Part shown: positions 1-22,205 of the stretch, piece by piece
Layout of the letters: every line of letters starts with the position of its first letter
Numbering within the stretch: position 1 is the first letter of the stretch
Assembly (NCBI GenBank): GCA_016788045.1
Contig: JAEUTG010000015.1
Location: 1-64,000, forward strand
DNA: 64,000 nt
From: Bacteroidales bacterium
GTDB lineage: Bacteria; Bacteroidota; Bacteroidia; Bacteroidales; Lentimicrobiaceae
Direction: 5' to 3'
Notes under the pieces: generated by a model
The model's database searches: none
What the model was told of the DNA's origin: nothing
Seen by the model: only the letters and a program-made list of their open reading frames with translations
Made by a program: the position numbers and the translations under genes

Positions 1-1330
1 GCCACCGATCGGACCATCGGTCTGTGTCCAGGTTCCTGTTCCTGATGTTGCTGTATTGCCGGCCAGGGTTGCTTCCAGTCCGCATACTTCCTGATCTGAA
101 CCGGCAGAGGCTGTGGTGGGACTGTCGTAATTGATCAGCGATACATCATCGCTGGTGGATGCACAAACTCCGTTGTTGATAGTCCAGCGCAATACATAGG
201 TACCCGGTATCATGCCGGTAACTGTGCTGTTGTAGGCTGATGGCGTGGTAATGGCCGGTACGTTCGGTCCACTGATTAATGTCCACAAGCCCGTGCCCGG
301 GGATGGATCGTTCCCCGCAAGGGTGGCTGTAGTTACGTCACAAAGACTCTGATCTGCACCTGCAGCAGCTGTAACAGCCTGATTTACAGTGAACGTTATA
401 GTGCTGTTGGCACATTCAATTCCCGGTACTCCGCTGTCGCAGATTTCAACCACCACAAAGTCAGTACCGTTATACCCATTGTCCGGATCGTATGTGTAAT
501 CCCCATCACTTTCAATGGTGAATGTACCATGTAAAGCATCCGTTAAAGGAACCGTATTGACTGTTAATGCTGTTCCATCAGGATCAGCATCCCCATTGGT
601 GAGAATATTTCCTGAAGATGTTGTACTGCTGCAAAGTGTATAAGCATCATCAACCAGCACCGGTGGGTCATTCACCGCTGTAACTGTAATCAACAGGTCA
701 GCTGTATCGAATCCGCCGTTACCATCGGTAATGGTATAGGTTGCTGCAGGTACACTTCCGTTGTAGTTGAGAACCGGTACAAACTGGAATGAACCATTGC
801 TGTTGATTACCAGCGTTCCAACTCCCGGAATCGTTGCTGTTACACCTGCCAGGTATGTTGTTGAACCTATGACGAATTGGGTAACTGTCAACACATCATT
901 TTCAGGGTCTGAATCATTGGTCAGTACTGTTCCAGCCACCGATGTATCTTCCGGTGTAGTTACTTCGTCGTTGACAGCAACGGGTGCATCATTCGAAGAG
1001 TTGATGGTGATGATTACCTGTGCATCCAGAGTTGCCCAGTTGGTACCATCTGAAGCATTATAGTCAAAGGTAGTTGTACCGAACCAGTTTCCATCCGGAA
1101 CGAAAGTAAGAAGATCAAGATCTGCCAGCGGGATCAATTGTCCTGTTGTTACCAGCACAGAATTCAGATACAGATCCCCATTGGCCGGTAAGCTTACTAC
1201 TTCAACTGTTACCAGGTCATCTCCGTCCGCATCGTTAAATGCATTGGTGAAATCAGATTCAGCAAAGGTTATTGTCTGATCTTCAGTACCTGATTTGGTT
1301 ATATCATCCAGAACAGGTGCATTGTCGTCG
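1..1330 (-). repeat. Cadherin/VCBS-like modules followed by a further repeat class
   Basis: After the last Calx-beta unit the frame reads three modules opening with NAPVLDD, DAPVAVNDE and DPPVLVDDA. These openings are typical of cadherin-like or VCBS-type tandem modules. From about 430 to the edge come two units that start with GADQSLC or GSDQEVCG and contain the motif ATLAGN followed by a GxW segment. This last class is common in large Bacteroidota surface proteins. It clearly continues past base 1. Confidence 0.7.
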
Positions 1331-4300
1331 TTTGTAATAGTTCCCAGTCCACTGGCATCGGTAAGTGTGATGGGTCGGCCATTGGTAACCAGGTTGCTTA
1401 ATTCAACAGTGAAGGTTTCATCATCTTCCACCCTGGTATCTCCATTCACACTGACCGTAATGGTTTTGCTGGTTTCTCCGGCGGCAAAAGCAAGTGTTCC
1501 TGTGGCTGTCGAGTAATCGCTATCGGCAGTGGTAGCAGTGCCGTTGGCTGTTGTATAATCCACTGTAACCGCTGCATCACTTGCGGCACTAAGTATAACG
1601 GTAAAGCTGAAACTGGTCGTTCCACTGTCCCCTTCGGCAAGTGTTACATCGTCAATACTCAGGGTAGCTGAATCGTCATTGGTAATGGTGCCGGTTCCTG
1701 TGGCATCGGTAATGGATACATTATTCCCGTTGTTCTCCAGATTGCTGAGGACTACTGTGAAGGTTTCATTGTTTTCAACTTTGGTATCTCCGTTTATGGT
1801 TACCGTGATGGTTTTGGTGGTTTCTCCGGCGGCAAAAGTAAGCGTACCTGTGGATAAATCGTAGTCACCATCAGCTATGGTGGCACTTCCGTCAGCGGTG
1901 GAATAATCAACAGTTACTGCATCATCGGATGCCGCACTCATACTGACTGTAAAGGTATAGGTGGTGGTGCCGCTGTTGCCTTCACTGGTGGTTACATCGT
2001 TGATGGTTATGGCAGCTGCATCGTCGTTGGTGATGGTTCCAACTCCCTGACTATCCGATAATGTAACTGCCAAACCTCCGTTCGAAAGGTTACTCAGGTT
2101 CATGTAGAAGGTCTCATTGTCTTCGACTTTGGTATCACCGTTAATCGGCACAATGATGGTGCGGCTGGTCTGACCCGCTGTAAATACCAGCGTTCCTGCT
2201 ACGGAAATGTAGTCACCGTCGGCAATGGTAGCGGTATTATCAGCGGTTGCATAATCCACAGTAACTGTTCCGCTGGCAGAACCTGACATTGTCACTGTAA
2301 AGGAAAGATTGGATGTACCGGCATTGCCTTCTACGATGCTTACATCATTTATAGTAATGGTAGCATTATCATCGTTGAGGATGGTTCCTGTTCCGGTAGA
2401 GGTATTAAGGCTGATGTTACGGCCATTGTTTACCAGGTTGCTCAATGCCACGGTGAAGATTTCGTCGTCTTCTATCCTTGTATCACCATTTACTGTTACA
2501 CTGAAGGTTTCTTCTGTATCACCCGCTGCAAAGGTCAGCGTTCCGGAAGCGGTTATATAATCGCTGTCGCCTGTGGTTGCTGTTCCATTGGCAGTTGCGT
2601 AATTAACCGTAACAGCAGCATCGCTTGCTGCACTCATACTCACGGTGAATGTGAAGTTTGTCGTGCCGCTGTTACCTTCGTTCTGGCTAACACTGTTAAT
2701 GCTCAGGGTGGCAGCATCATCATCGGTGATGGTACCTGTTGCCAGTGCATCATAGGTTACCAGAGCATTGCTGATATCAGAAAGATTGATAAAGAAGGTT
2801 TCTGTGATTTCTACAATACTGTTGTCAGTGATATCAACAGTAAAGGTTTCTGTTTCACCGTTGGTTCCTGCGAAAGTCAGTATACCTGAAGTTCCGGAGT
2901 AATCGCTTCCTGCAACAGCTGTATTGTTGGCCGTAGCATAGTCAATGCTTACCCCACCCTGTACTGCACCAGTGAGCGTTACAGTAAAGGTTGCTGTTCC
3001 GTCGGCTTCACTGATGGTTACATCGGCTATGCTCAGGCTGGCAGCATCGTTGTCGTTGATGTTTACGGTAGCCTCATCGGGCAGTCCGATGCTGATATTG
3101 GAATTGCCTGAAGTGATTGATGCAAGGGTTACTGTAACGGTTTCTGTATTTTCCAGAATGGCATCATCATTCACCAATACATCAATGGTAGCAGTTGTAC
3201 TGCCGGCAAGAATAATAACAGTTCCCGAAAGGGTATTGTAATCGGAACCTGCAGTAGCTGTGCCTCCTATGGTGTAGGATATTTCGGTATCGGTATCTGA
3301 GGCCTGCGACATGGTAACGGTAAATTCTCCGTCGTTCGAAGGCTCAGAGGCTGTTGGATCAGAAGCGGCGATGCTTACTGTAGCAACATCATTGTCAGCA
3401 ATGGTCACAGTAGCAACATCATTATCTGTATCTATAGAAGTATTGGCATCTCCTGATGTAATGGCCGTCAGGGTAACGATCACCGTTTCGGATGATTCCA
3501 TAATGAGATTGTCAATAACCTCAACAGGGATCGTTACAGAGGTACTTCCGGCCGGAATTGTTGCAGTTCCCGTAAGGGTTGTATAATCTGATCCGGGAGT
3601 TGCTGAGCCAGTTATGGCATATGTTATCACTGTTGCAACATCTGCTGCATTGGAAATGCTGATGGTGAATTCGCCATCGTTATCCGGTTCTGCTGCAGCA
3701 GCATCCGTTGCTGTGATGCTTACTGTGGCCACATCATCATCAGAAATAACAACAGAAGCTATGTACGGTGCCCCGATGGAAATACCACTATTGCCTGAAG
3801 TAACAGCCGAAAGGGTTATGGTTACCGTTTCGTCGTCTTCAAGTATGCTGTCGTCAATTACCGGAACAGGTATCGTTGCACTTGTCGAGCCAGCCGGAAT
3901 GGTTACTGTACCAGAAAGAGCCGTATAGTCACTTCCTGCAACAGCATCCCCTGAAATTGTATAGCTGATAACTGTGTTGGTTGAAGAGGTCAGGCCCATA
4001 CTTACCGTATATTCCCCGTCATTGTCGGGCTCTGCAGCCGCAGCGTCGCTGGCTACAACCGAAACACTGGTGGCATCATCGTTAAGAATTGTACCAAGTC
4101 CGGTATCGTCAGTGAAGGTAATGTTTCTTAAACCAAAGTCGTCTTCGGTGAGACCCACTGTAAAGGTCTCGGTAGGTTCTACAACAAGATCACCATTTAC
4201 AACAACAGTTAACATCTTTATTTCACCTGTAGTTCCGCTGAAAGTAACTGTACCACTTGTTGTTACGTAATCTGATCCACCTGCGGCCGACACCTCTGCT

Positions 4301-7300
4301 GTTTGATAAGCTACGGTAAAGGGACCATCGGTGCTTCGACCACTGTGTGTAATGATAAATACATATTCCAGTGTTTCACCATTATCAGGCTCTGTATTTG
4401 TAACATCGTTGATGGAAAGGGTGGCAGCATCATTGTCCTCTATATAGGAGGTTGCAGTCGTTGTAGCCCCTCCCCCGTTCAGAATCACATCCTGACTGTT
4501 GATCTGCAGGTTGCTCAACGTTCCGGTTAAGGTCTCTGTTGGTTCAACTATGAGGTCTTCCAGAATGGTAATCGGAACGGTTTGCGAAAGCGCTTCGCCG
4601 TTACCGAAGTCGAGGGTAGTTGAAAATGCTGTGTAATCAGAGCCTGTAAGCGCGGTTCCGTTTGAAGTGGCAAAATCAACAGTAACAGCATTCTGGATTA
4701 CCCTGTCGGATGTAACAGTAAACGATCCTGTTCCGTCTCCTTCATTCGCAGTAAAACCTGAAATGGTAAGGGTTGCCTGATCATTGTCGTTGATGGTGCC
4801 GGTTGCAGTCGGTGTAGAACCGATAGAAATCTGTTGTCCGTTGGCATTTACGAGGGCAATGGTTCCGGTGAATGCTTCAGTGGGCTCTACCACAAGGTCG
4901 CCTACCACTACTACCGGAATGTTGATGGATAGGGTTAATGGCGGGAAGGTATATTCAACCGTGGTTTGCTGGGTCAGATCGCTGCCATGCAAAGCAGTGC
5001 CCTGCGTTGTAGTGAATGAAATCACCACTGGCTCCTGAGCAATATAATCAAGGGATGCCACGAAATTGTATGTAGTATTCACATCCAGCTCTGATTCTGT
5101 AAACCCAACCAGGTTAATAGAATTAAGCGGGTCATCATCGGTAATCTCTCCCAAACCAAGGGCATCGGTAAAGCTGGCTGTTCCGGTTGTACTTATATTG
5201 CTGAGTGTAATTTCATAATATTCTGATAGCGGTTCAGCAATGGCATTATTCACTATGGTAACAGTAATGGTTTTGGTGGTACCACTCAGCGATCCGGCTT
5301 CAAAAGTCAATGTGCCAAGGGCTTCAAGATAATCCGAAGGCTCTTCAGCCGGTGTGGCCGGATGTAAAGAAGAACCATCGCTGGATGCAAAACTCATGGT
5401 AAGTTCATCCTGCAGATTGTCGCCCGACATTGTTACTGTGAATACAGCAACACCAGAACCCACATTTTCGGCTACGGTTATGTCATCAATAGTGAAGGTT
5501 ACAGCATCATTGTCAACAATGGTACCCACTGCTACGGCATCACTGATGGTGACCAGACCTCCGGTGATATTGCTCAGTGTAAGTGTATAGGTTTCTGTTG
5601 GCTCGGTGTAGGTATCATCGGAAATATCCACAGTAAAGGTTCGGGTGGCACCTGAGAGGGAGCCGGCACTGAAGTTAAGTGTACCTGTTGTTGTTGTATA
5701 ATCACTTCCGGCAAGCGCGGTATTGTTGCTGGTAGCAAAATCCACACTGAATGCATCCTGTACGTCTCCGGTCAGGGTTACGGTAAAGAGGGCAGTGGCT
5801 GCATCTTCATCAACACTCACATCAGCAATAGCTATACTTGCAACGTCATCATCTATAATGGTGCCGGTTGCTGTTCCTGTAAGGGCTCCAACAGTTGCCT
5901 GTTGCCCGTTGTCTTCAGTCAGGGTAATGGTACCGGTAAAGGCCTCGGTGGGTTCAATGTAGGTGTCACCCAGAATATCCACCGGAATATCGGTAAATAA
6001 GGTACCGGCCAGAATGGTTACACTTATGGCTGTACGGGCAGTATAATCACTGCCTGAAAGCGCAGTTCCGTTGGCTGTTGAGAACTCAAGGATAATATCT
6101 TCCTGAGCTGTGGTATTCATACTGGCCCTGAAATTACGAACCTGTGTAGCCTCGGTTTCGGTAACAGTAAAACCTGCCAGATCTATGGTAATGATATCGT
6201 TATCATTGATGGTAGATGTTGCTGTTGGGGTTGCAATGGTAATCTGCTGTCCATTTACATTGGTAATTGCAATGGTTCCGGTTAAGGTTTCTGTTGGCTC
6301 GGCAATCAAATCACCAAGAACACTTAAAGGTACATTTACCGAAGTATTGCCTCCTGTAAGGGTAACCACTGTACCGGTCTGTGCAGTATAATCACTGCCT
6401 GAAACAGCAGTAACATTGGCTGTTCCAAAGCTAAGTACAACATTCTCCTGAGCTTCAGCTGTCATGGAAACCACAAAATTCGCTGTCTGCGTTCCGTTGG
6501 TTTCAGTGACTTCAAAGCCGGTAATGGTCAGTGTAGCAGAATCATCATCGGTAATGGTTCCCAATCCCTGATTATCAGCTATGGTTGCATTTCCGGTTGT
6601 AACAAGCCCGCTAAGGTTTATAAAATAAGTCTCTGTTGGTTCGCAGATGGCATCGCTGGTTATGTTGATGGTAATGGTTTGGGTTGCCCCGTCAAGCGAA
6701 CCGGCATTGAAGGTAACTGTACCGGAATTGCTTGAATAATCACTGGCAGAGAGAGCGGTATTGTTGGCTGTGGCGAAGTTAACCGAAATGGCATCCTGGG
6801 TGTTTCCGGTAAGCGTTACTGTAAAGGTAGCGGTACCAGCCGATTCATCCACACTGACATTGTTAATGGCAAGGCTGGCATTGTCGTTGTCGTTAATGGT
6901 CCCGGTAGCGGTAGCGGTGGTTATCGTTACATCCTGGCCTCCTGAGCTGAGGTTGCTGATGGTGCCACGGAGTGTTTCGGTAGGTTCATCGAAGATGTCA
7001 TCTGTTATCGGAATTGAAATGGTCTGAACCAAAGGATTGGCCCCTCCGAATGTAAGGGTTGAATTCACCGCTTCATAATCACTTCCTGCCAGAGCAGTAA
7101 TATCACTGGTTGCAAAATCAACCGTAAACGGCGTTTGAACTGCCCCGCTGAGGGTAACTGTATAGTTCGCTGTTCCGGCATTTTCGTTCACTGTAAATCC
7201 TGTGATAACCAGGGTAGCAGCATCGTCGTTTTCAATGGTACCAATACCTGTACCATCAGAGATGGTTACATTGGGATTGGCTACGCCGGCGACCAATACA

Positions 7301-10300
7301 TTGCTTAGGGTTGCAGTAAAGGTTTCGTCCAGTTCTACTTTCAGATCGCCGTTTATGGTCACACTGAAGGTTTGGGTTTCGCCTTGTGTTCCCACAAAAG
7401 TCAGGGTTCCTGAAGCTGGTTCGTAATCATTGTCAGCATCGGCAGCAGTGCCATCACTGGTGTTATAATCTACGGTAACCCCAAGTTCTACTGCATTGGA
7501 TAAGGATACTGTAAATGTAAGCAACGAAGTACCTGCATTTCCTTCTGTAATGGAAACATCGTTAATGGCAAGAACAGAAGAGTCATCATTGGTTATCGTA
7601 CCCGTTCCGCTGTTGTCAGAAATCGTGATGTTTTTTCCTGAAGCTCCGGTGATAATTCCCAGTCTTACCGGGAAGGTTTCATTGGGCTCCACCATGATGT
7701 CCTGATTCACAAGTACAGTAACCGTTTTGGTTCCGTTGTTAATGGCTTCTGATTCCAGGAAAGTTACGGTTCCCCCTGTTCCGGTAAAGTCGGATGGTGC
7801 TTTTGCTGTTCCGGTGTTCTGGGTAAACCAGGTAACCCCGTAACCTCCGATAACCTGAGCCCCACTGTGGGTTAACGTGAAATTAACTGCTGTGGTTCCT
7901 GGAACTGTACTACCTTCTGTTACAGTTACATCATTTATTGCCACTGTGGCTGCATCATTGTCTGTATTGTTGACCGAAACATCCGCCGGATTCAGGGGAT
8001 CATAGTTGGGGTCTGTGGTGAGTCCTGCATCCACTGTATTGACAATCGTAAATGCAATGGTTCCGTCAACAACAATGTCATCAACACCTGTAACTGTTAT
8101 CGTTTGCGGTATATTCCAATCATCATGGTCAAAAGTAAGTTGCGAAATATCCACAGTACCTTCAGCTGTATTGTTGCTGGCAACGTTTACTACCACAACA
8201 TAATTATCATCATCGGTAGCAGGCATACTGGTAAGCACGATGGTAAAGGTGGCTGTGGTTGCGTTTTCACTTACAGTCAGCGAAGTTGGAGTGACAATAA
8301 AACCGGCAACATCGTTATCAATATTGGTCATGGTAACATCATCAACCACCATATTGTTGTACTTCAGATCGGCTGAAGAAGCGGCACTGGTAACAATATC
8401 GTAAGCAACATCCCCATCAACAATGAATTCATCGATACCGGTAACCGTTACGGTTTGGGCCACATTCCAGTTGGCCGGGGTAAAGGTGAGTGTGGTTGCA
8501 GAGGTTACATCACCTTCGGTTAGATCATCACTTGAAAGCGTAATGGTAACTGTTTCTGTTGGCTCAGTATCAAGTACTACGGTGAAAGTACCGGTCTGAC
8601 CGGTTTCAGTAGTCTGGGAATCTACCGGTGTAACCGTAATTCCGGCAACATCATTGTCAATATTGGTGCCGGCAACATCATCGGGATTTGCATTGTAATA
8701 ACCTGAGCCTTCATCCGTATTGACCGGGTCTATTGAAAGTACAATATTGTATGCAATATCATCATCATCAACCAGATCATCAACGCCGAATACATAAATG
8801 GTTTGCGGAATATCCCAGTTGGTTTCATCAAAACAAATGGTCTTGGTTGTAGCCGCTCCCGGACGGGTATTGTCAGTATCTACAATTGCTTCAGTATTGT
8901 CGCTGCTTGTAGCAATAATACATACATCTCCTGTTGGAGCAGCTGGCAGTACTACGGTAAACGAATCGGGCCCCTGAGCCTGATTCTCGTAAGTCTCAAC
9001 CGGGCCTCCAGTTACAGTTACGGCTCCGGAGGGCAGCGCATTCACGGTAACTGTAAAAGTACAGGTATGTGAATTACCGGCAGCATCGTAAGCAATGTAA
9101 GTGACGGTTGTGGTTCCTACGTTGAAGGTTGCACTGTTCAACTGATTAATGCCCCCCCCCTGGTGGGCGGAAGTTGTTGCTCCGCTTAAGGCATAGGTTA
9201 ATTGGGTCACTGCACAGTTATCACTGTAAACTGCATCCGGTATACCCGATACTACTACACTCAGATCTCCCGGATTGCCTACATTCTGTGTAATATTCGA
9301 CGGGCAGTTTACCACAGGATTCTGGTTGTCTGTTACCACCACATCAAAGGTTACCGTGGCAGTATTGGGTACCGTGGCATGATCAGCTACGGTCCAGGTT
9401 ACCGTTGTGGTTCCCTGATTAAACACTTGCCCGTTGAGTGTTGTATTGGGTGGAGTAACTACTGTGGTTGCCCCGCTTAATGTATAGGTGATGGTAGGAC
9501 TTGAATCACAGTTATCGGTCGGATTCCATAAGTTATCATTGTGTGTATAGGTACATACGCCGTTGTCGGTTACCTCAAGTCGGTCGGTCAGGTCATCAAG
9601 GGTTGGAGCCTGTTGATCAACTACAGTAATGGTGCTGGAACAGGTAGCCGTTCTTCCGGCAGCGTCGGTTACGCGCAGATACGATGTTGGGGTTCCTATA
9701 TCTGAACAGGTATAAGTAATGGATGAAGCCCATGTCCCGGCTCCTCCGGTTTTTGAGATTTCATAAGTTACAATTCCACAGTTGTCGGAAGAAAGGTTAT
9801 CAATATTGGCTGGCGTTACAACAGCCTCGCCGTTGCGAAGCAGCGGAGCTGTATATGCCTGACAGTTTGCAAGCGGGTCTTCATCGTCGGTAACCGTTAC
9901 CGTGAAGACACACGTCTGGCTGTTGCCCGATTGATCGGTGGCCGTCCAGGTTACGGTAGTAACTCCGTTCTGGAATACAGTATTGTTCAATGAAACCCCC
10001 GTTGCCGGCAATGCTCCGTTGTTTGCGGAATATGTTAACGCGGATAATGTACAGTTGTCGGTAGCAGACGGATTCCAGGATACTCCTGAATGGGTATAGG
10101 TACAGACTCCGGGATCTGTTGTTACTGACTGGTTACCCGGACAAGTTGCACCAAATGAAGGGGCAATCAGATCCTGTACAGTTACTGTTGATGTACAGGT
10201 GGAAACATTCCCATTGTTATCGGTTACAGTAAGGGTTACAGTATTATTTCCCAGGTCAAGGCAATCAAAACTGGTCTGACTTGCAACCAGAGAAGCAATT

Positions 10301-13300: not shown

Positions 13301-16300
13301 ACAAAGAAACTGGCAGAGCTTTCATTGTCGCTGTCATCTTCTGCTGTCCAGATAAGTTCATTTTCACCCATCTGTAGTATCTGACCGGCAAACGAAGTAC
13401 CGCCATAAATATTCTCAAGTTTAGTCACGATACCGCAATTGTCAACAGCAATCACATCATCAAATTCAGTTCCCTGAACCGTATAATAATTCTGATGCAG
13501 ATCGGTAGGGCGTGTCTGGTTTCCTGGTACGGTAATTACCGGGCCCTCTACGTCGAGAATGGTAAGGGTAAACGAACAGGTGGCAAAATTCCCGTTTTCG
13601 TCTGTTGCAGTCCAGGTAATGGGAATAACCCCGGTTCCTGGCCCATTATTAAATCCTCTGTTAATCGAGACTCCCGAAAGCGAGTTCGAACCAGTAACAA
13701 GATTCAATGTTTCAGGGTCTGTATAACTCCAGGTTACAGATGGTGCAGAACAGTTGTCGTCGAAATTTACAGGGTCAAATTCATTGCCGAGTCCAACATA
13801 AGCACAGGTGCCTGAATTGGCATTTCTTGTCTTGTCTCCTACACAGGTAATGCTTGGCGGCGTGTCGGTTACTACTACATTGAATACACAGGTTGAAACA
13901 TTGTCGGCATTGTCAGTTGCAGTATAAGTAACTACTGTGGTTCCCACAGGGAACAACTGGCCGGGAGAATGTGTTGAGGTAAAACTCTTTACCCCGGAAC
14001 AATCATCGGTGGCGATCAGGTTGGGCCAGCTTACAATGGCAGTGCAATCCTCACCCTGCGAAACGGCTGTAATATCTGCCACAGGGCAATTCGTAATCAC
14101 CGGCCCTTCGTTGTCAACAACAGTCACAACCTGCGTATGTATTGCAGTATTGCCACTGGCATCGGTAAAGGTCCACCTTACATTGTTGGGGCCAATATCA
14201 AACGGCATTACCAATGCCAGATCATTGCTTATTGTGATACTGCCCGATGGGGTACAATTGTCGGTAGCCGTTGGGAAATCAGGGGTTTGGGATGAATAAC
14301 ACTCCCCTGGATCAACATTGAAGGTTACATCATCGAAAGGAAGATCCATTACTGGTGCCTCGGCATCTACAACGGTAACACTATATACGCAGTCATCTGT
14401 ATAAGTAACACCTCCGATGGTTTGGCTTGCGGTCCAGGTTACGGTAGTGGTTCCGGTAGCGAAAACAGCTCCGTTCAGGGTAGAATTTGAAAGTGCATAA
14501 GGCCTCAACGATGAATTGGCAGTCTGCACATCATGGGTCAGGGTACGGCCGCTGATAATTGCTTCATTTTCCCATTCGGGATTCAGCGCATCATTACCGA
14601 TCGTATAATCACAATTGGCGGCACCGGTATTAAACGAAGCATTCCCGGGGCAATCAAGCAGGGGGTCAAATGAATCCACAATCGTTATATTCACCACACA
14701 GGTAGCTGTATTCCCACTCAGATCTGTGGCTGTCCATGTAATGGCATGGTCGCCGATACCCAGTTGGGTACCATTGAGGGTAGAACTTCCGTTCAGGTTA
14801 TTGATATATGACTGTATCTCGCAATTATCCGAAGGGGTGGGCTCAAACTCATCCCCCAGAACAGTATAATAATTAACCTCAAGATTGTCATATTCCCGGT
14901 AATAGGTTGTTGCGGGGCAATTTATGGTTGGTGCAATGTTGTCAACAACCGTAACGGTTTGTGTGTGATAAATATAATTACCGTTGCCATCATGAACTGT
15001 CCAGTAAACATTTGTGGTTCCAATGTCAAACGTAGTCCCTGAAGGAGACCTTGTTGCAGAAATACTGCCACTGGCTGTACAGTTATCTGATAAAACCGGA
15101 GATCCTACCGATACGCCTGTTGCCTGGCAACTGCCGGAATTTACATTCACAGTCAAATTCTCTGGCCAGGTAACTGATGGAACCTGATTATCCTCTACAG
15201 TAACAGTATAGGTGCAGCATTCGTTCATATTGGATCCCTCGGTAGCTGTCCATATTACCGTTGTTGTCGCATCACCGGGGAAAACAGCATTGGCCAGTGT
15301 AGTTGATGATGGGGCATAAGGCAATGTTCCGGGATCAGTCGTTTGTATGTTGTGTGTTAAAGTTACAGCAGGAGATGATTGAGTACTGCTCACATCAAAT
15401 TCTGAACCCTGTACAGTATATGAACAAACATTGCTATCGGTATTTCTGTATTGGTTTCCACGGCAGGTAACAGGAGGCGGATCAGAAGAGCGGATATCAA
15501 TATTGATTGTACAACTGGATGAATTACCTGCATTGTCAGTAATCGTCCAAGTGATGGTGGTCACCGTGTTGGGTACCTGAACTCCGGCCAGTGTATTGGC
15601 AGTAACCGCCGGCCCGCCATTAAAACTATAGGTGCGGCTTTGAATACCTGAACACTCATATATATAATATGGATCAAATTCGTGATCACGTACAGTATAA
15701 TACGTCTGGTTGTAGTCTTGCTGACGGCACAATGAACCCGGGCAACTCAGTGCGGGGGCATCGTCATCGGTTACCGTAATGATCTGATTATCGCTGCTGA
15801 TATTTCCGTGAATATCTTCTGTATACCAAGTAATGGTGGTTGAACCTATCGGGAAACCCCAATAGCTGTAGTAATTTCCAACATTATTCCAGGTGGTATA
15901 AATACCACAATTATCCGAAGTCACCGGTGTACCCAGTGAAACTCCGTAAGCAAAACATCCCGAATTGGTGGTTGTGTTGATATCTGCTGGAGCCTGAATC
16001 AAAGGGTCCTCATCATCAACAACCGTCACGTAGAAACTACAGGTATTGGTATAGGTAGTACCATTTATCTCCTGTGTTGCTGTCCAGGTAACCAATGTAG
16101 TACCTACCGGGAAAATGGCTCCGTTCAGCGTGGTGTTGCCTGGCGCATATGGAATTGCTCCTGAATTCGAAGTTTGAACATTATGGGTTAAAGACGCCAG
16201 CGGCGATGTCGAAGTTGCATTAAATCCCGGGCCGGAGACAGTATAACTGCAGTCTCCATTGGTATTGTTTACACTTTGATCTCCTACACAGGTAATGGGT

Positions 16301-19300
16301 GGATATAATTCTGATACCACAATCACACTTAGTGTACAGGTCGTTGTGTTCCCGGAAGCATCGGTGGCGGTCCAGGTTATGTTTGTTGTACCCACCGGCA
16401 GTTGTTCTCCGGTAAGTGTTCCTGAACTGTTATAATCGTTCAGGTAAGAAGCTACTGCACAATTGTCTGTTGCAACCGGGCGGAACTCACCGGCACCAAC
16501 CGTGTAGTAGTTTTGTCCGTCATCAACCACCCTTACATAATAATTGACCGGGCAATTGATTACCGGATCGGTGTTGTCAACTACCGTAATATTCATGGTC
16601 TGGGTGTTGGTATTACCATAAAAGTCCCTGACCGTCCAGATAACCTCAGTGGTTCCAACCGGGAATACAGCGTAATTCAGCGAACGGTAATTGTTATAAT
16701 TGTTACGTATATACAGATTGTCTTCAGTACAATTATCATCAACAAGCTGGGGGTCAAATTCCGTTCCGGATACCATGTAACTGCAGTTGCCTGAAGAGGC
16801 ATCCCTGGTGGTATTGGCCGTCAGGTCATAGGTTGGGGCCGTAACATCCAGTACTTCCACTTCAAACTGCTGGGTTACAGTATTTCCGGAGGCATCACTC
16901 AAGGTCCATACTACTACCGTTATCCCCACCGGGAATTCGAATCCACTGAGGGTATTTGATGCATTCTGGTTGTTGATAAGAACCGGATCGGGACAGTTGT
17001 CAGTAACTGCTGGATCAAACTCGGTGCCCGAGGCTGTATAATAACATACCCCTGCAGGAGCATTCCGTGTCTGGTCTCCGATTGTTGAAGTAAATGAAGG
17101 AGCTACCACATCGTTAACCGTAACAACAAAGGTACATGTGTTGGTATTGCTGGCGCCGTCCGTGATTGTCCATACTATGGTATTGGCTCCGGCATTTAAG
17201 ACATTGCCTGCCATGGTGGTGGAAGCACCTCCGCTTACCCCATTGATGAAATATTCCAGTTCAAGATCTCCGGAATCGTCACAGTTGTCTGACAAACTGC
17301 TGGGGTCAAATTCTGTTCCTACAATGGTATAGGAACATCCGCCTCCCGGAGCTGTACGTATCTCATTTCCATGACAGATGAACTGAGGCATCTGGTTGTC
17401 TGAAACTGATATGGTAACCGGAATTGCTGTGGTTATATTTCCGTTTACATCTGTTACCGTCCAGGTGATGATATAAGGGAAAGCTGACTTGGGAAGCTGA
17501 ACTCCTGCCAGACTGTTGGTTCCTGTAAGGAAGGTGCTTCCATTGTTGGTAATAATAAAAGCAGCAGGGTTCACACTACAGTTGTCAAGTACATTGGTAA
17601 CATCATAGGTGATATCCGGAATGGTATAATAGCATTGTCCCGGGTCAGTCCCTTTTGAATGCGGACCCACGGCAGGTTGATTAAAGGTCGGATTCTGATT
17701 ATCGGTAACAACAACTACTATGGTACAACTTGAGGTGTTGTTGGAACTGTCGGTCACTGTCCATTCAATGGTATGTGTTCCGGCCGGAAGCAGCTTATTG
17801 GTTAATGTGTTTGTTGAGTCAAACGAGTTGATTGCTGTTACCGGACAACCATCACTGGTTATTGGATTAAATTCTGCACCCTGAACGGTATAGAAACAGA
17901 ATCCGTTATCGGTGTTTCTGGCAAACGGACTGCCTGCCGGACAGGTAATGGTCGGTGGTGTGAGGTCGTTTACTATTACATTGAAACTCATGAAAACCTG
18001 ATTACCGGCAGCATCCAGTGCACGGTAACGAACCATGGTAGTCCCCACGGGGAACTCTTCCCCTGATTCAATTCCATTCACCTGACTGAATATCAGACCC
18101 GGACAGTTGTCGGAATGTAATGGCTCCGTCCAGCTGACCACAGCTCCGCATCCAATGCTTATGTCAACAGTAATGTCCGGGAGCTGCTCGATGTATGGTG
18201 CATCGTCATCATTTACTGTCAGTCTGAAAGTACTCGTGCTGTTGTTGGTGCCATCAGTTGCAGTCCATGTTATAACATTTACACCTTTATTCATAAACAC
18301 TCCATTGAGCGTATTGGTTCCGGTTGCTGTTGTGGCTCCTGTTACCGACCAACTGAGTGTGGTATTGCCCGAACAGTTGTCGGTTACTGTAGGATCAAAC
18401 TCAGTACCGCTCACTGTATAACCACAGGCATTGCTCTGGGTTCCTCTGTTCTGGTTTCCGATACCTACGATTACCGGCCCCTGATTGTCATTAATTGTAA
18501 TGGTAAACGAAAATGCCGGAGAAGATGTGTTGCCCGAAGCATCGGTTGCAGTCCAGGTAATCACATTGGCTCCCACATTCAGATTTTTTCCTGCGAGCGA
18601 ACCTGTTCCACTAAGCGTGGTTGCACCACTTACTGAATAGGATAAAGTAGCACCTGAGCAGTTGTCGGTGGTTGTCGGATCAAACTCTGTTCCTACGACG
18701 GTATAATAACAAAAACCCGAAGTGGTATTTCTGCTGCTGTTAACAGTCGTAGGTGTGGCACTGATGGTGGGGGCCAGATTATCAACTACAGTAACTGTAG
18801 AACTACAGGTACTTATATTTCCCGAAGCATCCCTGACAGTGAGGATTACCGTGTTGGCTCCGATGTTGGAACAATTGAAGCTGGTCTTACTCAGGGTAAG
18901 TATCAGACTTCCGGAAGCTGTGCAATTGTCGGATGAACCATTGTTTACCTGTGATGCAATCAGGGTGGCCTGTCCAGATCCGTTCAGTGTAAGGGTAGCA
19001 TTCTTGCAAACAGCCACCGGAGGAGTATTGTCGGTTACCGTAACATTAAATATACAAGGGTTGCTCACATTGCCTGATTCATCCTGAACAGTGTAGGTAA
19101 CCGTTGTTGTACCTACCGGGAAAGTTGATCCGGGTAGATGTGATTTTGTCCAGACAAGATTTCCCTGTGCAGAACAGTTATCGGTGGCAGTGGGCTCGGT
19201 CCAGCTTACAACGGCATTACATGTCGTGGCACCGGCACCTGTCCCAACCGAAATGTTCGACGGGCAATTGCTGATTACGGGTTTCACCAGGTCGTTGATG

Positions 19301-21852
19301 GTTACCGTAAAGGAGCAGGTCGCACTCACATTACCGGCTCCATCCGTTGCTGTGTAGGTAACTGTGGTTGTTCCCACACTGAAAACCGTTCCGGGCGTGT
19401 GCGACTTGGTCCATACCAGGCTTCCGCTTGGGGTACAGTTATCTGTCGCTGTCGGTTCGGTCCAGCTGACTGCGGCAGTACATGATCCGGCTCCGGCTGT
19501 CCGGGTAATGTTGGCCGGGCACCCGCTGATTACCGGTGCCTGTGTATCATTCACCGTAACTGTGAATGAACAGGTGGCGGTGTTGTTGTCACCATCGGTA
19601 ACTGTTAATGTCACAGTGGTAGTACCAACATTAAATGTCTGGGCTCCGGGTTGGCCATTTCCACTGAGTGTAGTCGCTCCTGAGGTGCTCCATGAAAGCA
19701 CAGAACCGCTGCAGTTGTCACCAAATACAATAGCGGGGATTGTTACACTGGCCGAACACTGATTCACCGCATTGGAAGCGGTGATATTGCCCGGACAGGT
19801 AACGGAAGGATCCTCCGTATCGCTCACCGTTACTGTAAAGCTACAGCTAGCTGTATTCAACGATGCATCTGTTACTGTAAGTAGCACTGTAGTTACACCC
19901 GAATTGAAGGTCTGAGCTCCGGGCTGACCGTTTCCGCTCAAGCTGGTAGCCCCGCTTGTGCTCCACGACAGTGATGAACCTGAACAGTTGTCATCAAAAG
20001 ACACAACTGGTATGGTTACACTCGCTGAACAGGTCCCTGAAGCATTGTTGGCTGTCAGATTACCCGGACAGGTTACTGAAGGATCTTCATTGTCAGTGAC
20101 TGTTACTGTAAAAGAACATGTTGCAGTAAGAAGTGCACCATCAGTAACAGTAAGGGTTACGGTTGTTACTCCGGCATTGAAGGTCTGTGTGCTGGGCTGA
20201 CCATTACCGTTTATGTTGGTGGCTCCGGTTGTACTCCAGGTTAGCACCGGACTGCTGCAGTTGTCACCGAATGTAATGGCAGGAATGGTTACTGCTGCTG
20301 TACATTCCGAAGCATCTGTATCAACAGCGATATTGGCCGGACAGGTAACCGTTGGAACATCATCATCGGTTACAGTTACAGTAAAACTGCAACTGGTAGT
20401 ATTGGCTGGTGAGGCTCCGTCTGATACAAGCACAGAAACTGTAGTGATACCGCTATTAAAAACTGCTCCGTTCAATGTGGTATTTATTGTTCCTGTAGTT
20501 GCTCCGGATAAAGTATATACGATTGATGCGACAGTACAATTATCAGAGGCTGTAACATTCCACGCGGTTCCGCTGTGGGTATATGAACACAATCCGCTGT
20601 TTGTTGCAGCGGTCTGGTTGCCAGGGCAAAATGTGATCGAGGGATCCTCTGTATCTTCAATTGAAACATCAAAACTGCAATTACCGGTATTTCCTGCACC
20701 ATCGGTAACCGTCCAGGTAACCGTGGTTGTTCCCGGTTGAAATACCACCCCGTTGAGGCTGGTACCGGAAGCAGGAGAAGCTCCGTTGTTGGCTGAAAAG
20801 GTAACTGAAGCCACAGTACAGTTGTCAGCTCCCGAAGGATTCCAGGCTGTACCCGAATGGGTATAGGTACATCCGGCACCAGCGGGTACGATTTGATTGC
20901 TCACACAACTGATGGTTGGATTCACATTGTCAAGCAAGGTAACATTGAAGTTACAGCTGGCCTGATTCCCTGCTGCATCTGTTGCTGTTAAGGTGATCTG
21001 TTGCGTAGTGTTGTGTCCGGATATGCTTGTTCCCGGGGCTGGCGACTGGGAAATGGTGATGCTCCCTGCAGCAGTACAGTTATCCGAAACTGTGGCAAGG
21101 CTCCGGTAATCGGGAAGGGCAGCCGAACATCCGGTAGCAGGATTTGGATTCAGTGTCTGATTACCCGGGCAGGTAATAGATGGCGGGGTATTTTCAAGCA
21201 GTACGGTGTAGGCAACTGAAGTCGTACAGGCAGGCGTTGTATTGCTGATTGCCCTGACAGTGTAGTTTGTATTGGCAGAAATAGATGTCAAGTAGGGCAG
21301 ATCGGCTATTTTGACTGTGTTGGCTGCATTCCACAATTCAAAGTTACTGCCATTGGTCGCTGTAGCTGAGATGGTGAAATTGACCCCCGGGCATTGGCGG
21401 GTCGAAGGAGCTACAACAACGGAAGAGGGCAATGGGTTAACCGTTATTGTAACTGATCCCTCCAGCAAAGAGAGGCCTACCAGAGGATCACCGAATGAAA
21501 CACTCACCAGCGTGTAGGTAGTCGTAACTGCCGGGGTTACAATGATAGGATCTCCTTCAAGTGGCCCGGTATCCGGGTCACAATTGCTGTCGTAACCAGT
21601 AACTGTGTAATTGTTGGTTCCGTCGGTGTAAACAACCGTCCAGGGCGCATAACCTCCGCATATAACCACATTGATGCTGGTACTTTCTCCGGCACACACA
21701 GAGGTTGCCCCTCCGGCTTGCAGTGTGGCTTGTGCTTTGGTTTGCTGAACCGAAAGCAGCATTACTATGAAAACAGAAATAGCAGCCACGCCTCTGGCGA
21801 TCACTGCTGCTGAAAACTTCTGCCTGTTTACTGAGTGTAGAATTGTGCCCAT
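1..21852 (-). CDS. Giant modular secreted surface protein (HYR / Calx-beta repeats), C-terminus outside window
   Basis: This is a single open frame of at least 7,284 codons. I translated it from the ATG at 21852, through the C9 run near 9152, and continuously from about 5040 to the left edge; all lie in the same frame. The N-terminus is a signal peptide with a hydrophobic stretch at residues 23-35 and a cut near residue 42 (KAQA). Two Ig-like modules follow (about 43-215), then about 45 HYR-type modules of about 90 residues with conserved Cys pairs and a recurring DNC motif, about 22 Calx-beta modules of about 115 residues, three cadherin/VCBS-like modules and the start of another repeat class. 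Repeat architecture and size recall SprB-type gliding adhesins and other T9SS cargo. A T9SS tail would lie beyond the left edge and is not seen. Adhesion or matrix function is inference. Confidence 0.93.
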   Translation of the reverse strand, partial: MGTILHSVNRQKFSAAVIARGVAAISVFIVMLLSVQQTKAQATLQAGGATSVCAGESTSINVVICGGYAPWTVVYTDGTNNYTVTGYDSNCDPDTGPLEGDPIIVTPAVTTTYTLVSVSFGDPLVGLSLLEGSVTITVNPLPSSVVVAPSTRQCPGVNFTISATATNGSNFELWNAANTVKIADLPYLTSISANTNYTVRAISNTTPACTTSVAYTVLLENTPPSITCPGNQTLNPNPATGCSAALPDYRSLATVSDNCTAAGSITISQSPAPGTSISGHNTTQQITLTATDAAGNQASCNFNVTLLDNVNPTISCVSNQIVPAGAGCTYTHSGTAWNPSGADNCTVASVTFSANNGASPASGTSLNGVVFQPGTTTVTWTVTDGAGNTGNCSFDVSIEDTEDPSITFCPGNQTAATNSGLCSYTHSGTAWNVTASDNCTVASIVYTLSGATTGTINTTLNGAVFNSGITTVSVLVSDGASPANTTSCSFTVTVTDDDVPTVTCPANIAVDTDASECTAAVTIPAITFGDNCSSPVLTWSTTGATNINGNGQPSTQTFNAGVTTVTLTVTDGALLTATCSFTVTVTDNEDPSVTCPGNLTANNASGTCSASVTIPVVSFDDNCSGSSLSWSTSGATSLSGNGQPGAQTFNSGVTTVLLTVTDASLNTASCSFTVTVSDTEDPSVTCPGNITASNAVNQCSASVTIPAIVFGDNCSGSVLSWSTSGATTLSGNGQPGAQTFNVGTTTVTLTVTDGDNNTATCSFTVTVNDTQAPVISGCPANITRTAGAGSCTAAVSWTEPTATDNCTPSGSLVWTKSHTPGTVFSVGTTTVTYTATDGAGNVSATCSFTVTINDLVKPVISNCPSNISVGTGAGATTCNAVVSWTEPTATDNCSAQGNLVWTKSHLPGSTFPVGTTTVTYTVQDESGNVSNPCIFNVTVTDNTPPVAVCKNATLTLNGSGQATLIASQVNNGSSDNCTASGSLILTLSKTSFNCSNIGANTVILTVRDASGNISTCSSTVTVVDNLAPTISATPTTVNSSRNTTSGFCYYTVVGTEFDPTTTDNCSGATLSYSVSGATTLSGTGSLAGKNLNVGANVITWTATDASGNTSSPAFSFTITINDNQGPVIVGIGNQNRGTQSNACGYTVSGTEFDPTVTDNCSGNTTLSWSVTGATTATGTNTLNGVFMNKGVNVITWTATDGTNNSTSTFRLTVNDDDAPYIEQLPDITVDISIGCGAVVSWTEPLHSDNCPGLIFSQVNGIESGEEFPVGTTMVRYRALDAAGNQVFMSFNVIVNDLTPPTITCPAGSPFARNTDNGFCFYTVQGAEFNPITSDGCPVTAINSFDSTNTLTNKLLPAGTHTIEWTVTDSSNNTSSCTIVVVVTDNQNPTFNQPAVGPHSKGTDPGQCYYTIPDITYDVTNVLDNCSVNPAAFIITNNGSTFLTGTNSLAGVQLPKSAFPYIITWTVTDVNGNITTAIPVTISVSDNQMPQFICHGNEIRTAPGGGCSYTIVGTEFDPSSLSDNCDDSGDLELEYFINGVSGGASTTMAGNVLNAGANTIVWTITDGASNTNTCTFVVTVNDVVAPSFTSTIGDQTRNAPAGVCYYTASGTEFDPAVTDNCPDPVLINNQNASNTLSGFEFPVGITVVVWTLSDASGNTVTQQFEVEVLDVTAPTYDLTANTTRDASSGNCSYMVSGTEFDPQLVDDNCTEDNLYIRNNYNNYRSLNYAVFPVGTTEVIWTVRDFYGNTNTQTMNITVVDNTDPVINCPVNYYVRVVDDGQNYYTVGAGEFRPVATDNCAVASYLNDYNSSGTLTGEQLPVGTTNITWTATDASGNTTTCTLSVIVVSELYPPITCVGDQSVNNTNGDCSYTVSGPGFNATSTSPLASLTHNVQTSNSGAIPYAPGNTTLNGAIFPVGTTLVTWTATQEINGTTYTNTCSFYVTVVDDEDPLIQAPADINTTTNSGCFAYGVSLGTPVTSDNCGIYTTWNNVGNYYSYWGFPIGSTTITWYTEDIHGNISSDNQIITVTDDDAPALSCPGSLCRQQDYNQTYYTVRDHEFDPYYIYECSGIQSRTYSFNGGPAVTANTLAGVQVPNTVTTITWTITDNAGNSSSCTINIDIRSSDPPPVTCRGNQYRNTDSNVCSYTVQGSEFDVSSTQSSPAVTLTHNIQTTDPGTLPYAPSSTTLANAVFPGDATTTVIWTATEGSNMNECCTYTVTVEDNQVPSVTWPENLTVNVNSGSCQATGVSVGSPVLSDNCTASGSISATRSPSGTTFDIGTTNVYWTVHDGNGNYIYHTQTVTVVDNIAPTINCPATTYYREYDNLEVNYYTVLGDEFEPTPSDNCEIQSYINNLNGSSTLNGTQLGIGDHAITWTATDLSGNTATCVVNITIVDSFDPLLDCPGNASFNTGAANCDYTIGNDALNPEWENEAIISGRTLTHDVQTANSSLRPYALSNSTLNGAVFATGTTTVTWTASQTIGGVTYTDDCVYSVTVVDAEAPVMDLPFDDVTFNVDPGECYSSQTPDFPTATDNCTPSGSITISNDLALVMPFDIGPNNVRWTFTDASGNTAIHTQVVTVVDNEGPVITNCPVADITAVSQGEDCTAIVSWPNLIATDDCSGVKSFTSTHSPGQLFPVGTTVVTYTATDNADNVSTCVFNVVVTDTPPSITCVGDKTRNANSGTCAYVGLGNEFDPVNFDDNCSAPSVTWSYTDPETLNLVTGSNSLSGVSINRGFNNGPGTGVIPITWTATDENGNFATCSFTLTILDVEGPVITVPGNQTRPTDLHQNYYTVQGTEFDDVIAVDNCGIVTKLENIYGGTSFAGQILQMGENELIWTAEDDSDNESSASFFVYIIDTEAPRVFTLPQNITASVPSGCSMAMNYTPPVIVDNVTTNLTLTYTPDYAVPGYIFPVGVTPVTISTVDEAGNAFSYTFNITVLDEIAPTLDCPVGDPGNLFTRSTDPGEPYYTAINVEFNPTAYGDNCDFELTNDWNNSTTLTGEQFEIGTHEVIWTVTDSSNNVTSCTIIIEIEDNEDPTIENCPPETVAKNSDPGECYYTVPGSEYDPYGFDDNDDVWKLTYQINSGSEVGLDLLTSLVGVELPVGTDVITWRLYDMSGNVNATCVTTFTITDPEPPVVLTVGTQTRSTDAGQNYYTSNPLTDAAWDPVITDNCEVDVITYTIDGGTPVGIDETTSIMGVQFGIGTHTVVWSATDIHGNGPVTGSYQVIITDDENPTAVCNPVTIDLDATGNYTLDEDDIAAIGAGSNDPGGPVTLSVSPESFDCADTGTNTVTLTVTDGSGNTATCNAEVTVQDVTPPTATCTSATLTLDALGQAVLNPASLNAGSADACGIAGYAASQTIFDCSDVGNHTITLTVTDNNGNTSTCDASVTIVDNTAPNAVCNPITVSLDATGNWVLTQDDLNAISAGSADNCASTLTVTVTPNTFDCSDIGANSATVRVTDPGGQFDECTTTITVEDNLPPVARCQNITVNLDATGNAVIAATDIDNGSTDNCDASPALSIDVSSFTCADLGSNTVTLTVTDDNGNSSTCTSTVTIADDIDPEVTCPVSNQTVGTDTDVCTYTHSGTSWDASATDGCTTIASLTYTLSGVTTGTGTSLDGVIFNRGVTTVTWTATDGSGNTGNCFYTVTVNDNQNPDAVCQNITVQLDAGGSAAIVAADVNNGSDDNCGIQSLAVSPNSFDCDDLGANTVTLTVTDLSGNTSTCEATVTVEDNIDPVAACTPITISLEADGDYTLSVANINAISAGSSDNCDIATRVVSPNTFDCSDIGSNSVELTITDDAGNTSTCTTTVTVEDNTDPSAVCQDITVQLNSSGSATITANDIDDGSTDACGIASLVASQTSFDCLDLGNNTVTLTVTDNNGNVSTCTSTVTVQDLIAPSFGATCPGNQSVTTDPGVCTYTHSGVSWNPSATDNCTLSALTYSANNGALPATGVSLNNTVFQNGVTTVTWTATDQSGNSQTCVFTVTVTDDEDPLANCQAYTAPLLRNGEAVVTPANIDNLSSDNCGIVTYEISKTGGAGTWASSITYTCSDIGTPTSYLRVTDAAGRTATCSSTITVVDQQAPTLDDLTDRLEVTDNGVCTYTHNDNLWNPTDNCDSSPTITYTLSGATTVVTPPNTTLNGQVFNQGTTTVTWTVADHATVPNTATVTFDVVVTDNQNPVVNCPSNITQNVGNPGDLSVVVSGIPDAVYSDNCAVTQLTYALSGATTSAHQGGGINQLNSATFNVGTTTVTYIAYDAAGNSHTCTFTVTVNALPSGAVTVTGGPVETYENQAQGPDSFTVVLPAAPTGDVCIIATSSDNTEAIVDTDNTRPGAATTKTICFDETNWDIPQTIYVFGVDDLVDDDDIAYNIVLSIDPVNTDEGSGYYNANPDDVAGTNIDNDVAGITVTPVDSQTTETGQTGTFTVVLDTEPTETVTITLSSDDLTEGDVTSATTLTFTPANWNVAQTVTVTGIDEFIVDGDVAYDIVTSAASSADLKYNNMVVDDVTMTNIDNDVAGFIVTPTSLTVSENATTATFTIVLTSMPATDDDNYVVVVNVASNNTAEGTVDISQLTFDHDDWNIPQTITVTGVDDIVVDGTIAFTIVNTVDAGLTTDPNYDPLNPADVSVNNTDNDAATVAINDVTVTEGSTVPGTTAVNFTLTHSGAQVIGGYGVTWFTQNTGTAKAPSDFTGTGGTVTFLESEAINNGTKTVTVLVNQDIMVEPNETFPVRLGIITGASGKNITISDNSGTGTITNDDSSVLAINDVSITEGNAGTSLLTFTVSLSNAVELGVTVDYNTSDGTAADADNDYEPASGTLTFVGTQGETQTFSVTINGDLKVELDETFTATLSNVLVAGVANPNVTISDGTGIGTIENDDAATLVITGFTVNENAGTANYTVTLSGAVQTPFTVDFATSDITALAGSDYEAVNSTLTFGGANPLVQTISIPITDDIFDEPTETLRGTISNLSSGGQDVTITTATATGTINDNDNASLAINNVSVDESAGTATFTVTLTGNTQDAISVNFATANNTALSASDYSSNSGTVTFNAGSLDGATQTITINITSDAICEPTETYFINLSGLVTTGNATIADNQGLGTITDDDSATLTITGFEVTETNGTQTANFVVSMTAEAQENVVLSFGTANVTAVSGSDYTAQTGTVVTLTGGNTSVNVPLSVLGDLIAEPTETLTGTIAITNVNGQQITIATPTATSTINDNDIITIDLAGFTVTETEATQVRNFRASMNTTAQEDIILEFSTANGTALSGSDYTARTAISVTILAGTLFTDIPVDILGDTYIEPTEAFTGTITLTEDNGQQATVGALTGTATGTIIDDDVASIAIADVSVDEDAATALFTVTLTGDVQDAFSVDFATSNNTALAGSDYTTTTGTLNFSAGSLSGATRTFTVDISDDTYTEPTETYTLTLSNITGGLVTISDAVAVGTIVDNDAVTFTIDDITVAENVGSGVAVFTVTMSGDNLQDELTMSFASSDGSSLHPATPAEEPSDYLEALGTLTFEAGSLSGTTKTITVTIVNNAIAEPLSEYYEITLSNISTTGTASFTDALGLGEITDDDPLNSINLVGFTESELDVNTTYNFVASLDYIAQEPVVISFTTTQGTALHGSDLTQQTTVEYTFPPLTLSINIPVVVVGDLVVEPTEAFTGTIALVNANGQQISIGSTPTATGTINDNDQATLTISGFTANEGDGTGSFTVTSDRVIQNAVTVDFATSNGTALTGSDYTAFSTTLDFGNGEALSQTVPITILEDLIVEPTETLTGTLSNLQINSQDVILNGGGATTTATSYIEDNDAATLSINDVTNTEPDNGETLEYVFIITHSGRSTDGPFTVAYQTAEVSAAGGSDYVTTSGTVTFSGTTGEIKMLTVVVNGDLVVEPTETFTVGLTEDDFGLRNITFTDDTGLGTILNDDATSVSVVASDAAAAEPDNDGEYTVSMGLTSSTNTVISYTISGDAVAGSDYTALSGTVTIPAGSTSATIPVPVIDDSILEDDETVTITLSAVTSGNSGISIGAPYIASVVISDDDVATVSITATDAAAAEPDNDGEFTISISNAADVATVITYAITGSATPGSDYTTLTGTATIPAGSTSVTIPVEVIDNLIMESSETVIVTLTAITSGDANTSIDTDNDVATVTIADNDVATVSIAASDPTASEPSNDGEFTVTMSQASDTDTEISYTIGGTATAGSDYNTLSGTVIILAGSTTATIDVLVNDDAILENTETVTVTLASITSGNSNISIGLPDEATVNINDNDAASLSIADVTISEADGTATFTVTLTGAVQGGVSIDYATANNTAVAGSDYSGTSGILTFAGTNGETETFTVDITDNSIVEITETFFINLSDISNALVTYDALATGTITDDDAATLSINSVSQNEGNSGTTNFTFTVSMSAASDAAVTVNYATANGTATTGDSDYITASGTLTFAAGDTEETFSVTVNGDTRIEDDEIFTVALSNLVNNGRNISLNTSTGTGTILNDDNATITINDVSIVEGNAGTSNLSFTVTMSGSASGTVTVDYATADNTATIADGDYISVAGTLVFTAGQTSRTIIVPINGDTKVEDNETFYMNLSNLSNGGLAVTLSDSQGVGTITNDDAAAITINDVTTSEGNSGTTTYTFTVSMSAASDDAVTVDYSTADGSATIADGDYDLSTGTLTFAAGETTKTITVTINGDTKVENNETFTVVLSNLENNGNNVSITDATGTGTITNDDSATLSIDDVTLAEGDSGTTSFSFTVILSAASDAAVTVDYTTANGTATTADSDYSTATGTLAFAAGETSKTITVSVNGDTRVEDDETFTVELSNLVTNGRPITLTDASGLGTITNDDNAPVLDDITKSGTEDQTITFAESDFTNAFNDADGDDLVTVEVVSLPANGDLYLNSVLVTTGQLIPLADLDLLTFVPDGNWFGTTTFDYNASDGTNWATLDAQVIITINSSNDAPVAVNDEVTTPEDTSVAGTVLTNDSDPENDVLTVTQFVIGSTTYLAGVTATIPGVGTLVINSNGSFQFVPVLNYNGSVPAATYTITDGNGGFDTADLLITVTAVNDPPVLVDDAYTLCSSTTSSGNILTNGDADPDGTALTVNTVPLTDALHGTFTIESDGDYTYDPDNGYNGTDFVVVEICDSGVPGIECANSTITFTVNQAVTAAAGADQSLCDVTTATLAGNDPSPGTGLWTLISGPNVPAITTPSAYNSTVTGMIPGTYVLRWTINNGVCASTSDDVSLINYDSPTTASAGSDQEVCGLEATLAGNTATSGTGTWTQTDGPIGG
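1330..8990 (-). repeat. Block of about 22 Calx-beta modules in the giant gene
   Basis: Modules of about 340-350 bases share a pattern of a DDDxATLSI opening, an EGxxGT turn, VTVDYxTANGTA, GSDY, GTLTF and ExxETFTVxLSN. This is the Calx-beta domain, a calcium-binding beta-sandwich common in giant bacterial adhesins. The block is almost free of cysteine, unlike the HYR block before it. Units between about 1330 and 2740 are the most alike and look like the youngest duplications. Confidence 0.85.
8990..21200 (-). repeat. Block of about 45 HYR-type modules in the giant gene
   Basis: Modules recur every 240-300 bases. Each carries a DNC motif (on the plus strand cagttgtc, caattgtc or cagttatc) and ends with a variant of VTVxDAxGNxxxCxFTVTV followed by P-x-I-x-CP. 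The paired cysteines probably form one disulfide per module. HYR modules are Ig-fold units known from extracellular and adhesion proteins. The count comes from listing DNC-like sites by eye from 21078 down to 9227, so it may be off by a few. Confidence 0.85.
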
Positions 21853-21889
21853 AAACTTTGTTTTTGCCCCTGTTATTATATACCTTAAG

Positions 21890-21911
21890 GCATCCCCTGA
21901 TTAAGGGATGC
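21890..21911 (-). promoter_or_regulatory. Leader hairpin upstream of the giant gene
   Basis: GCATCCC (21890-21896) and GGGATGC (21905-21911) form a perfect 7-bp stem with an 8-base loop, 38-59 bases upstream of the ATG. No T-run follows in the direction of the giant gene, so it does not look like an intrinsic terminator. It may act on mRNA stability or translation. Confidence 0.45.
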
Positions 21912-21935
21912 TCATTAAAATTCAAAAGACAATCG

Positions 21936-21962
21936 GACAGGTAATTGGTCAAACTACCTGTC
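21936..21962. promoter_or_regulatory. Inverted repeat, possible operator of the giant gene
   Basis: GACAGGTA (21936-21943) and TACCTGTC (21955-21962) form a perfect 8-bp inverted repeat with an 11-base spacer, about 85-110 bases upstream of the ATG. It could be a protein-binding site or a second leader hairpin. No TAnnTTTG box was found next to it. Confidence 0.35.
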
Positions 21963-22191
21963 TCTGGTGTATGCTAACCCCATCAAAATACTACAAAGAC
22001 AGCTTTTTTAATCGCATTCGCAACCGATTGCCGCTAAATATTTCAGGTTGTGTAATGGGGTTCCTGACATTGACAATTGGCTCAAAGGGTTGTCAAATTT
22101 TTTACTGTCGTTGTTTGCTATTTTTTACACTTAAAGATATGGTAGATAATATTAGTTTAATTTTAAGCCAATTTGTAAGTTTTACACAAGG

Positions 22192-22205
22192 AGTTGTTAA
22201 CAACT
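22192..22205. promoter_or_regulatory. 14-bp perfect palindrome AGTTGTTAACAACT
   Basis: The palindrome has a TGTTAACA core, as do two sites between nadA and rpiB (36278-36285 and 36382-36395). It is followed directly by another TGTTAA half. A regulator site is possible, but palindromes also arise by chance in AT-rich DNA. Confidence 0.35.

Follow-up and report, generated by a model that had tools for sequence, protein, structure and literature searches.

The window analysed here, a stretch of 64,000 nucleotides, was found to be bases 1-64000 of contig C51 in the genome G000, a 4.74-Mb assembly of 60 contigs. The left part of the window contained one giant open reading frame on the minus strand, which started with an ATG at position 21852 and ran for 7,284 codons with 0 stops (Table 1). 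The original prediction had described a frame open from 21852 to the left edge; this was borne out, no stop was found within the repeats, and the observation of a giant multidomain frame was thus confirmed. Window base 1 was the end of the assembled contig and not an arbitrary window cut. It is therefore the assembly, and not the window, that truncates the gene, since the frame is still open where the contig itself ends.

Table 1. Features of the giant gene, its surroundings and the contig with its probable end (positions without a contig name are those of the window)
Feature	Position	Strand	Basis
Giant adhesin gene, amino-terminal 7,284 codons	1..21852	-	Open frame, contig end, orthologues, dN/dS
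Probable Sec signal peptide, aa 1-42	21727..21852	-	Sequence judged by eye
Region preceding the first HYR domain, aa 43-219	21196..21726	-	Conserved in G006, G001, G012, G010
45 HYR domains, aa 220-4270	9043..21195	-	Pfam PF02494 and iterated profile
About 3 diverged Calx-type repeats, aa 4271-4652	7897..9042	-	By eye; below profile threshold
19 Calx-beta domains, aa 4653-6839	1336..7896	-	Pfam PF03160, profile, PDB matches
Cadherin-like/Big_9 domains, aa about 6840-7150	403..1335	-	PF17803, PF17963, PF17892, three stretches each
Two PKD-like domains at the start of the repeat stalk, truncated at the contig end	1..402	-	Profile; nucleotide profile
Intergenic stretch preceding the giant gene, long and AT-rich	21853..23404	.	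No ORF of at least 150 aa
CorA-type transporter, locus marker outside the adhesin	23405..24316	-	TIGR00383 173.7 bits, below cut-off of 200.75
C-terminal frame, 1,778 codons, probable end of the giant gene	C21:2-5338		Type B CTD: TIGR04131 53.5 bits (cut-off 35); CHU_C 83.4 bits (cut-off 27)
PorP/SprF gene, directly downstream	C21:5365-6279		TIGR03519 269.8 bits (cut-off 90.55)
PorE-like/CHU_0125-like TPR-PD40-OmpA gene, after PorP/SprF	C21:6340-8742		CHU_0125 445 bits, PorE 346 bits, both below curated cut-offs

The Pfam search of the giant frame found HYR (E=2e-178), Calx-beta (E=6e-242), and cadherin-like/Big_9 (E about 1e-30) domains, all three being families that the original prediction had named. 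Domains were counted with profiles iterated on the giant protein itself, which gave 45 HYR, 19 Calx-beta, two cadherin-like, and two PKD-like domains, 68 in all; the number rose to about 72 once three diverged Calx-type repeats and a third cadherin-like copy, recognised by eye, were added, in agreement with the predicted number of about 70. The start of the protein, also judged by eye, contained a charged start, a hydrophobic core, and A-Q-A at residues 40-42. The region before the first HYR domain had no match in a PDB search, and the PDB matches of the Calx-beta region were the Calx-beta domains of Na/Ca exchangers. By this homology, the giant rope is probably stiffened by calcium. The PKD-like end of the window was about 95% identical in nucleotides to the congener G001 and had a weak Pfam match to K319L-like PKD; its single-sequence AlphaFold model was poor (pLDDT 40).

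The promoter of the giant gene probably lies in the AT-rich intergenic stretch before it; the GC content was 0.34 over window positions 22001-24000. No conserved start-proximal motif was found upstream of the gene. A leader hairpin at 21936-21962 was dropped as a candidate because its sequence was not conserved among six upstream regions, and the only Rfam match in the window was a tRNA. The CorA gene was present upstream of the giant in G001, G006, G010, G012, and G017. Also upstream of the giant gene, at 23088-23206, lies a dispersed element that is about 100 bp long and contains an inverted repeat. It had about 45 matches genome-wide, several of them less than 250 bp from contig ends, and has the look of a REP/MITE-type repeat at which the assembly breaks. 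Elsewhere in the window, a separate T9SS type A cargo was present at 30269-31531 (TIGR04183 42.8 bits, cut-off 23).

Orthologues were sought in congeners with the amino-terminal 220 aa of the giant protein. Over about 7,000 aligned codons the identity was 83, 78, and 68% in G001, G012, and G010, respectively. Each of these contained 45 HYR domains, as in G000, and the number of Calx-beta domains was 19, 23, and 19, respectively. The dN/dS of the giant gene against its congeners was about 0.05-0.11 where dS could be estimated. The low dN/dS and the fixed domain number rule out decay to a pseudogene, and the frame breaks in G001 coincide with N positions. The giant gene is real and, judged from these sequence comparisons, constrained by purifying selection. 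The amino half is fixed, with 45 HYR domains in four species, whereas the repeat stalk shifts, which makes the function testable by domain. No phage match to the amino end of the protein was found, and no published HYR/Calx-beta giants of Bacteroidetes turned up in a literature search.

A search with the broken window end led to contig C21, which starts inside the C-terminal frame of Table 1. This frame contained seventeen 88-aa repeats with two cysteines, followed by a Big_9 (cadherin-like) domain and a T9SS type B CTD. The cysteine pair was conserved in each repeat, with a spacing of 88 residues. In a Pfam search with the first six repeats, no family reached its cut-off, and the 88-residue two-cysteine repeat is a candidate for a new domain family; it dominates the stalk of these giants (C21 frame, 2-4500). 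The PorE-like gene was followed by a TrpS-like gene, named from its sequence, and by others common to the relatives.

The C21 frame is probably the end of the giant gene of the window. No sequence overlap was found between the ends of C51 and C21, and the next stretch known from G001 was on no contig when the genome of G000 was searched. The order CorA, giant, PorP, PorE-like, TrpS-like was conserved among relatives, with PorP, PorE-like, and TrpS-like genes following the C-terminal frame in G006, G012, G010, and G017. Both ends of the 3.1-Mb contig of G001 fall in its giant gene (amino part 3068460-3114282, carboxyl part 1-6075), and the inspected ends of the other G001 contig did not carry the array. 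Divergence from G001 was about 5% over the last 284 codons of the window and 7-9% over C21:1-900; with such low values, both broken ends look like one G001-type array. The join is thus supported by the conserved order of the locus, by the contig ends of G001, and by the near-identity of the broken ends to G001.

Across most of the giant gene the nucleotide difference between G000 and G001 was about 25%. Three tracts were 91-97% identical to G001 in DNA, i.e., the window parts encoding aa 4801-5100 (about 6553-7452) and aa 7001-7284 (1-852), and C21:1-900. They point to sequence exchange across species in the recent past, with a chimeric assembly as a possible alternative.

In trees built from the C-terminal 450 aa and from PorP, an A group (G001, G006, G012, G013, and G010-A) was separate from a B group (G010-B, G017, and the C21 gene of G000). 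In G010 an A and a B giant stood in tandem; the two tandem genes occupy 1-7764 and 8718-29360 of G010:C132, and both come with PorP and PorE-like genes, the PorE-like copy of the first being about 100 aa shorter than the other. G000 contained an A-type amino half and, on C21, a B-type end, and neither a B-type amino terminus nor an A-type PorP was found in it. The simplest reading of these sequences is that the gene of G000 is an A/B mosaic formed by recombination within the repeats. By both C-terminus and PorP, C21 clusters with the B genes from G010 and G017, and A and B genes are adjacent in G010; this would also fit two tandem giants in G000, with the A-type end, PorP, and PorE-like gene of the window gene hidden in the assembly gap and C21 being the end of a second, B-type giant beside it. 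We consider this arrangement unlikely, since it leaves the B-type amino terminus and the A-type PorP missing and requires that a large unique stretch is absent from a 96% complete assembly; moreover, C21:1-900 shares 91-93% identity with the array of the A gene in G001, and the broken end of C51 points to this same type of donor. With two giants, the protein would still be exported and anchored in the same general way. Since a type B signal is also present at the A-type ends of the relatives, together with shuttle and PorE-like genes, the conclusion on these three holds with or without the join.

Returning to a single gene across C51 and C21, the giant protein, conditional on the join, ends in a type B sorting domain as T9SS type B cargo does. 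The original prediction had advised a search of the extended contig for a T9SS C-terminal domain of type A or gliding type B, and type B was found on this probable missing end. Its reading of the protein as a T9SS-exported adhesin or matrix component is supported by the type B CTD with the PorP/SprF and PorE-like genes on C21, and the CorA-linked amino half also comes with a type B end in relatives. In G000, the genes for SprA (2642.7 bits), GldM (397.8 bits), and GldJ (461.8 bits) were over their cut-offs, as were GldE and GldD in the window; a T9SS is predicted for G000 from these genes. The protein is a very large example of an already known class.

Type B cargo of F. johnsoniae is exported together with a dedicated PorP/SprF-like shuttle, the gene for which mostly lies immediately downstream (PMC12618676). 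Where a PorE-like gene accompanies the cargo gene, the cargo has been proposed to be static, whereas the moving adhesins are without such a gene (PMC12618676). The published trio of type B cargo, shuttle, and PorE works in the way proposed here (PMC12618676, PMC9143113). By analogy with F. johnsoniae and P. gingivalis, the giant protein would be exported by Sec, and its type B CTD would be recognised by the adjacently encoded PorP/SprF-like shuttle, after which the giant would leave through SprA. The shuttle would stay as the outer-membrane anchor and the PorE-like protein would tie it to the peptidoglycan. The HYR, Calx-beta, cadherin-like, and 88-residue repeats would make up a long rope, probably stiffened by calcium. 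Its HYR half, at the amino terminus, may project outward and meet the target, and the protein would act in adhesion. Taken as a whole, a T9SS-exported giant with a type B CTD past the contig break and a static anchor through the PorE-like protein is the reading that we hold to be likely.

The point of anchoring bears on another reading, a mobile gliding adhesin like SprB, in which the giant rides on the gliding track and drags the cell across surfaces. The genes for GldD, GldE, GldJ, GldM, and SprA are present, and the size and the type B signal of the giant are SprB-like. The movement of adhesins, however, requires a Cys-Xaa-Cys in the C-tail of SprF, which is disulfide-bonded to GldK (PMC12635249), and the shuttle of the giant contained a cysteine in 0 of the 7 copies from six genomes, so the Cys-Xaa-Cys tail of SprB-type gliding was not found. 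It is also followed, in the same operon, by a PorE-like gene, which is absent from the moving type B adhesins of F. johnsoniae (PMC12618676). We therefore regard a gliding adhesin as very unlikely: the gld genes of the window, on which the original prediction had drawn, stood as a link to the T9SS but not as a sign of gliding. A cysteine-free shuttle with a PorE-like neighbour predicts a fixed rather than a moving adhesin, and we infer static anchoring of the giant; as a prediction, it is clear and can be checked.

GhpA is a heptameric, T9SS-secreted grappling-hook protein of Aureispira with 5,898 aa (PMC13319060), whose role was described previously (PMC11205867). The repeats and CTD of C21 matched GhpA with E=9e-59 over ten stretches, the C-terminus included, and the repeat profile alone matched it with E=2e-6. 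By sequence, GhpA is the closest solved relative of the tail of the giant. No sequence match to GhpA was found with window aa 1-3500 or aa 1-220, and the HYR and Calx-beta halves had no match to it.

A second giant was found in G000 at C49:21830-45583, with 7,918 codons and 58 repeats of PKD-like type. It contained a sub-threshold type B CTD and a PorP/SprF-like gene downstream, and it matched GhpA with E=1e-121. Its shuttle tail ends in E-L-Q-C-S-P-F and thus contains a cysteine, unlike the shuttle of the window giant; the C49 giant may be its moving counterpart.

The GhpA match of the C21 stalk and CTD could mean that several giants assemble lengthwise, like GhpA, into a grappling-hook appendage with the amino part as the catching tip for prey or partner cells. 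We give this little chance: the HYR domains, the Calx-beta domains, and the amino-terminal 220 aa are without a GhpA match, and the likeness of the stalk is not specific, since the C49 giant matches GhpA as well.

The assembled parts in G000, window and C21 together, amounted to 9,062 codons, with the array between them unassembled. In G001, the one relative with a long contig, the gene spans about 51.9 kb or about 17,300 codons, about 2.9 times GhpA; this size is an estimate, which includes about 3 kb of N with frame changes at the N positions, and the repeats are out of register between the two contig ends. Such a cargo is a demanding case for T9SS export in terms of size, and genes of this kind are probably under-counted in metagenomes, as the array breaks the assemblies of the examined locus. 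As a speculation that we think highly improbable, a T9SS cargo of about 17,000 residues, among the largest, could form an oligomeric grappling-hook-like appendage of several hundred nanometres in an uncultured lineage of the Bacteroidia, with HYR domains as the catching tip and a stalk like that of GhpA, and recombination, both among tandem paralogues and across species, would remake it.

Compared with known systems, the giant ORFs of Omnitrophota are alike in extreme size and presumed cell-surface role. The ORF of Velamenicoccus archaeovorus, with 39,678 aa, is larger than the giant described here; transmembrane helices are predicted in it, and the passages considered make no mention of a T9SS signal (PMC10066038). 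GhpA of Aureispira sp. CCB-QB1 (PDB 9flp and others) and the present giant are both very large and T9SS-linked, and their stalk repeats and C-terminal regions are alike by sequence, whereas the present gene is much longer and has HYR, Calx-beta, and amino-terminal regions without a GhpA match. SprB of F. johnsoniae, with about 6,500 residues, is likewise a giant type B T9SS adhesin with a gene for a SprF-family shuttle immediately downstream; in the present case more than 9,000 residues are assembled, the shuttle is without the Cys-Xaa-Cys tail, and a PorE-like gene is present. The same gene order and the same kinds of genes as here are found in Fjoh_3952-3951-3950 of F. johnsoniae and in PG1035-PorP-PorE of P. 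gingivalis (PMC12618676, PMC9143113). The cargo of the present locus is far larger, with a body of HYR and Calx-beta domains.
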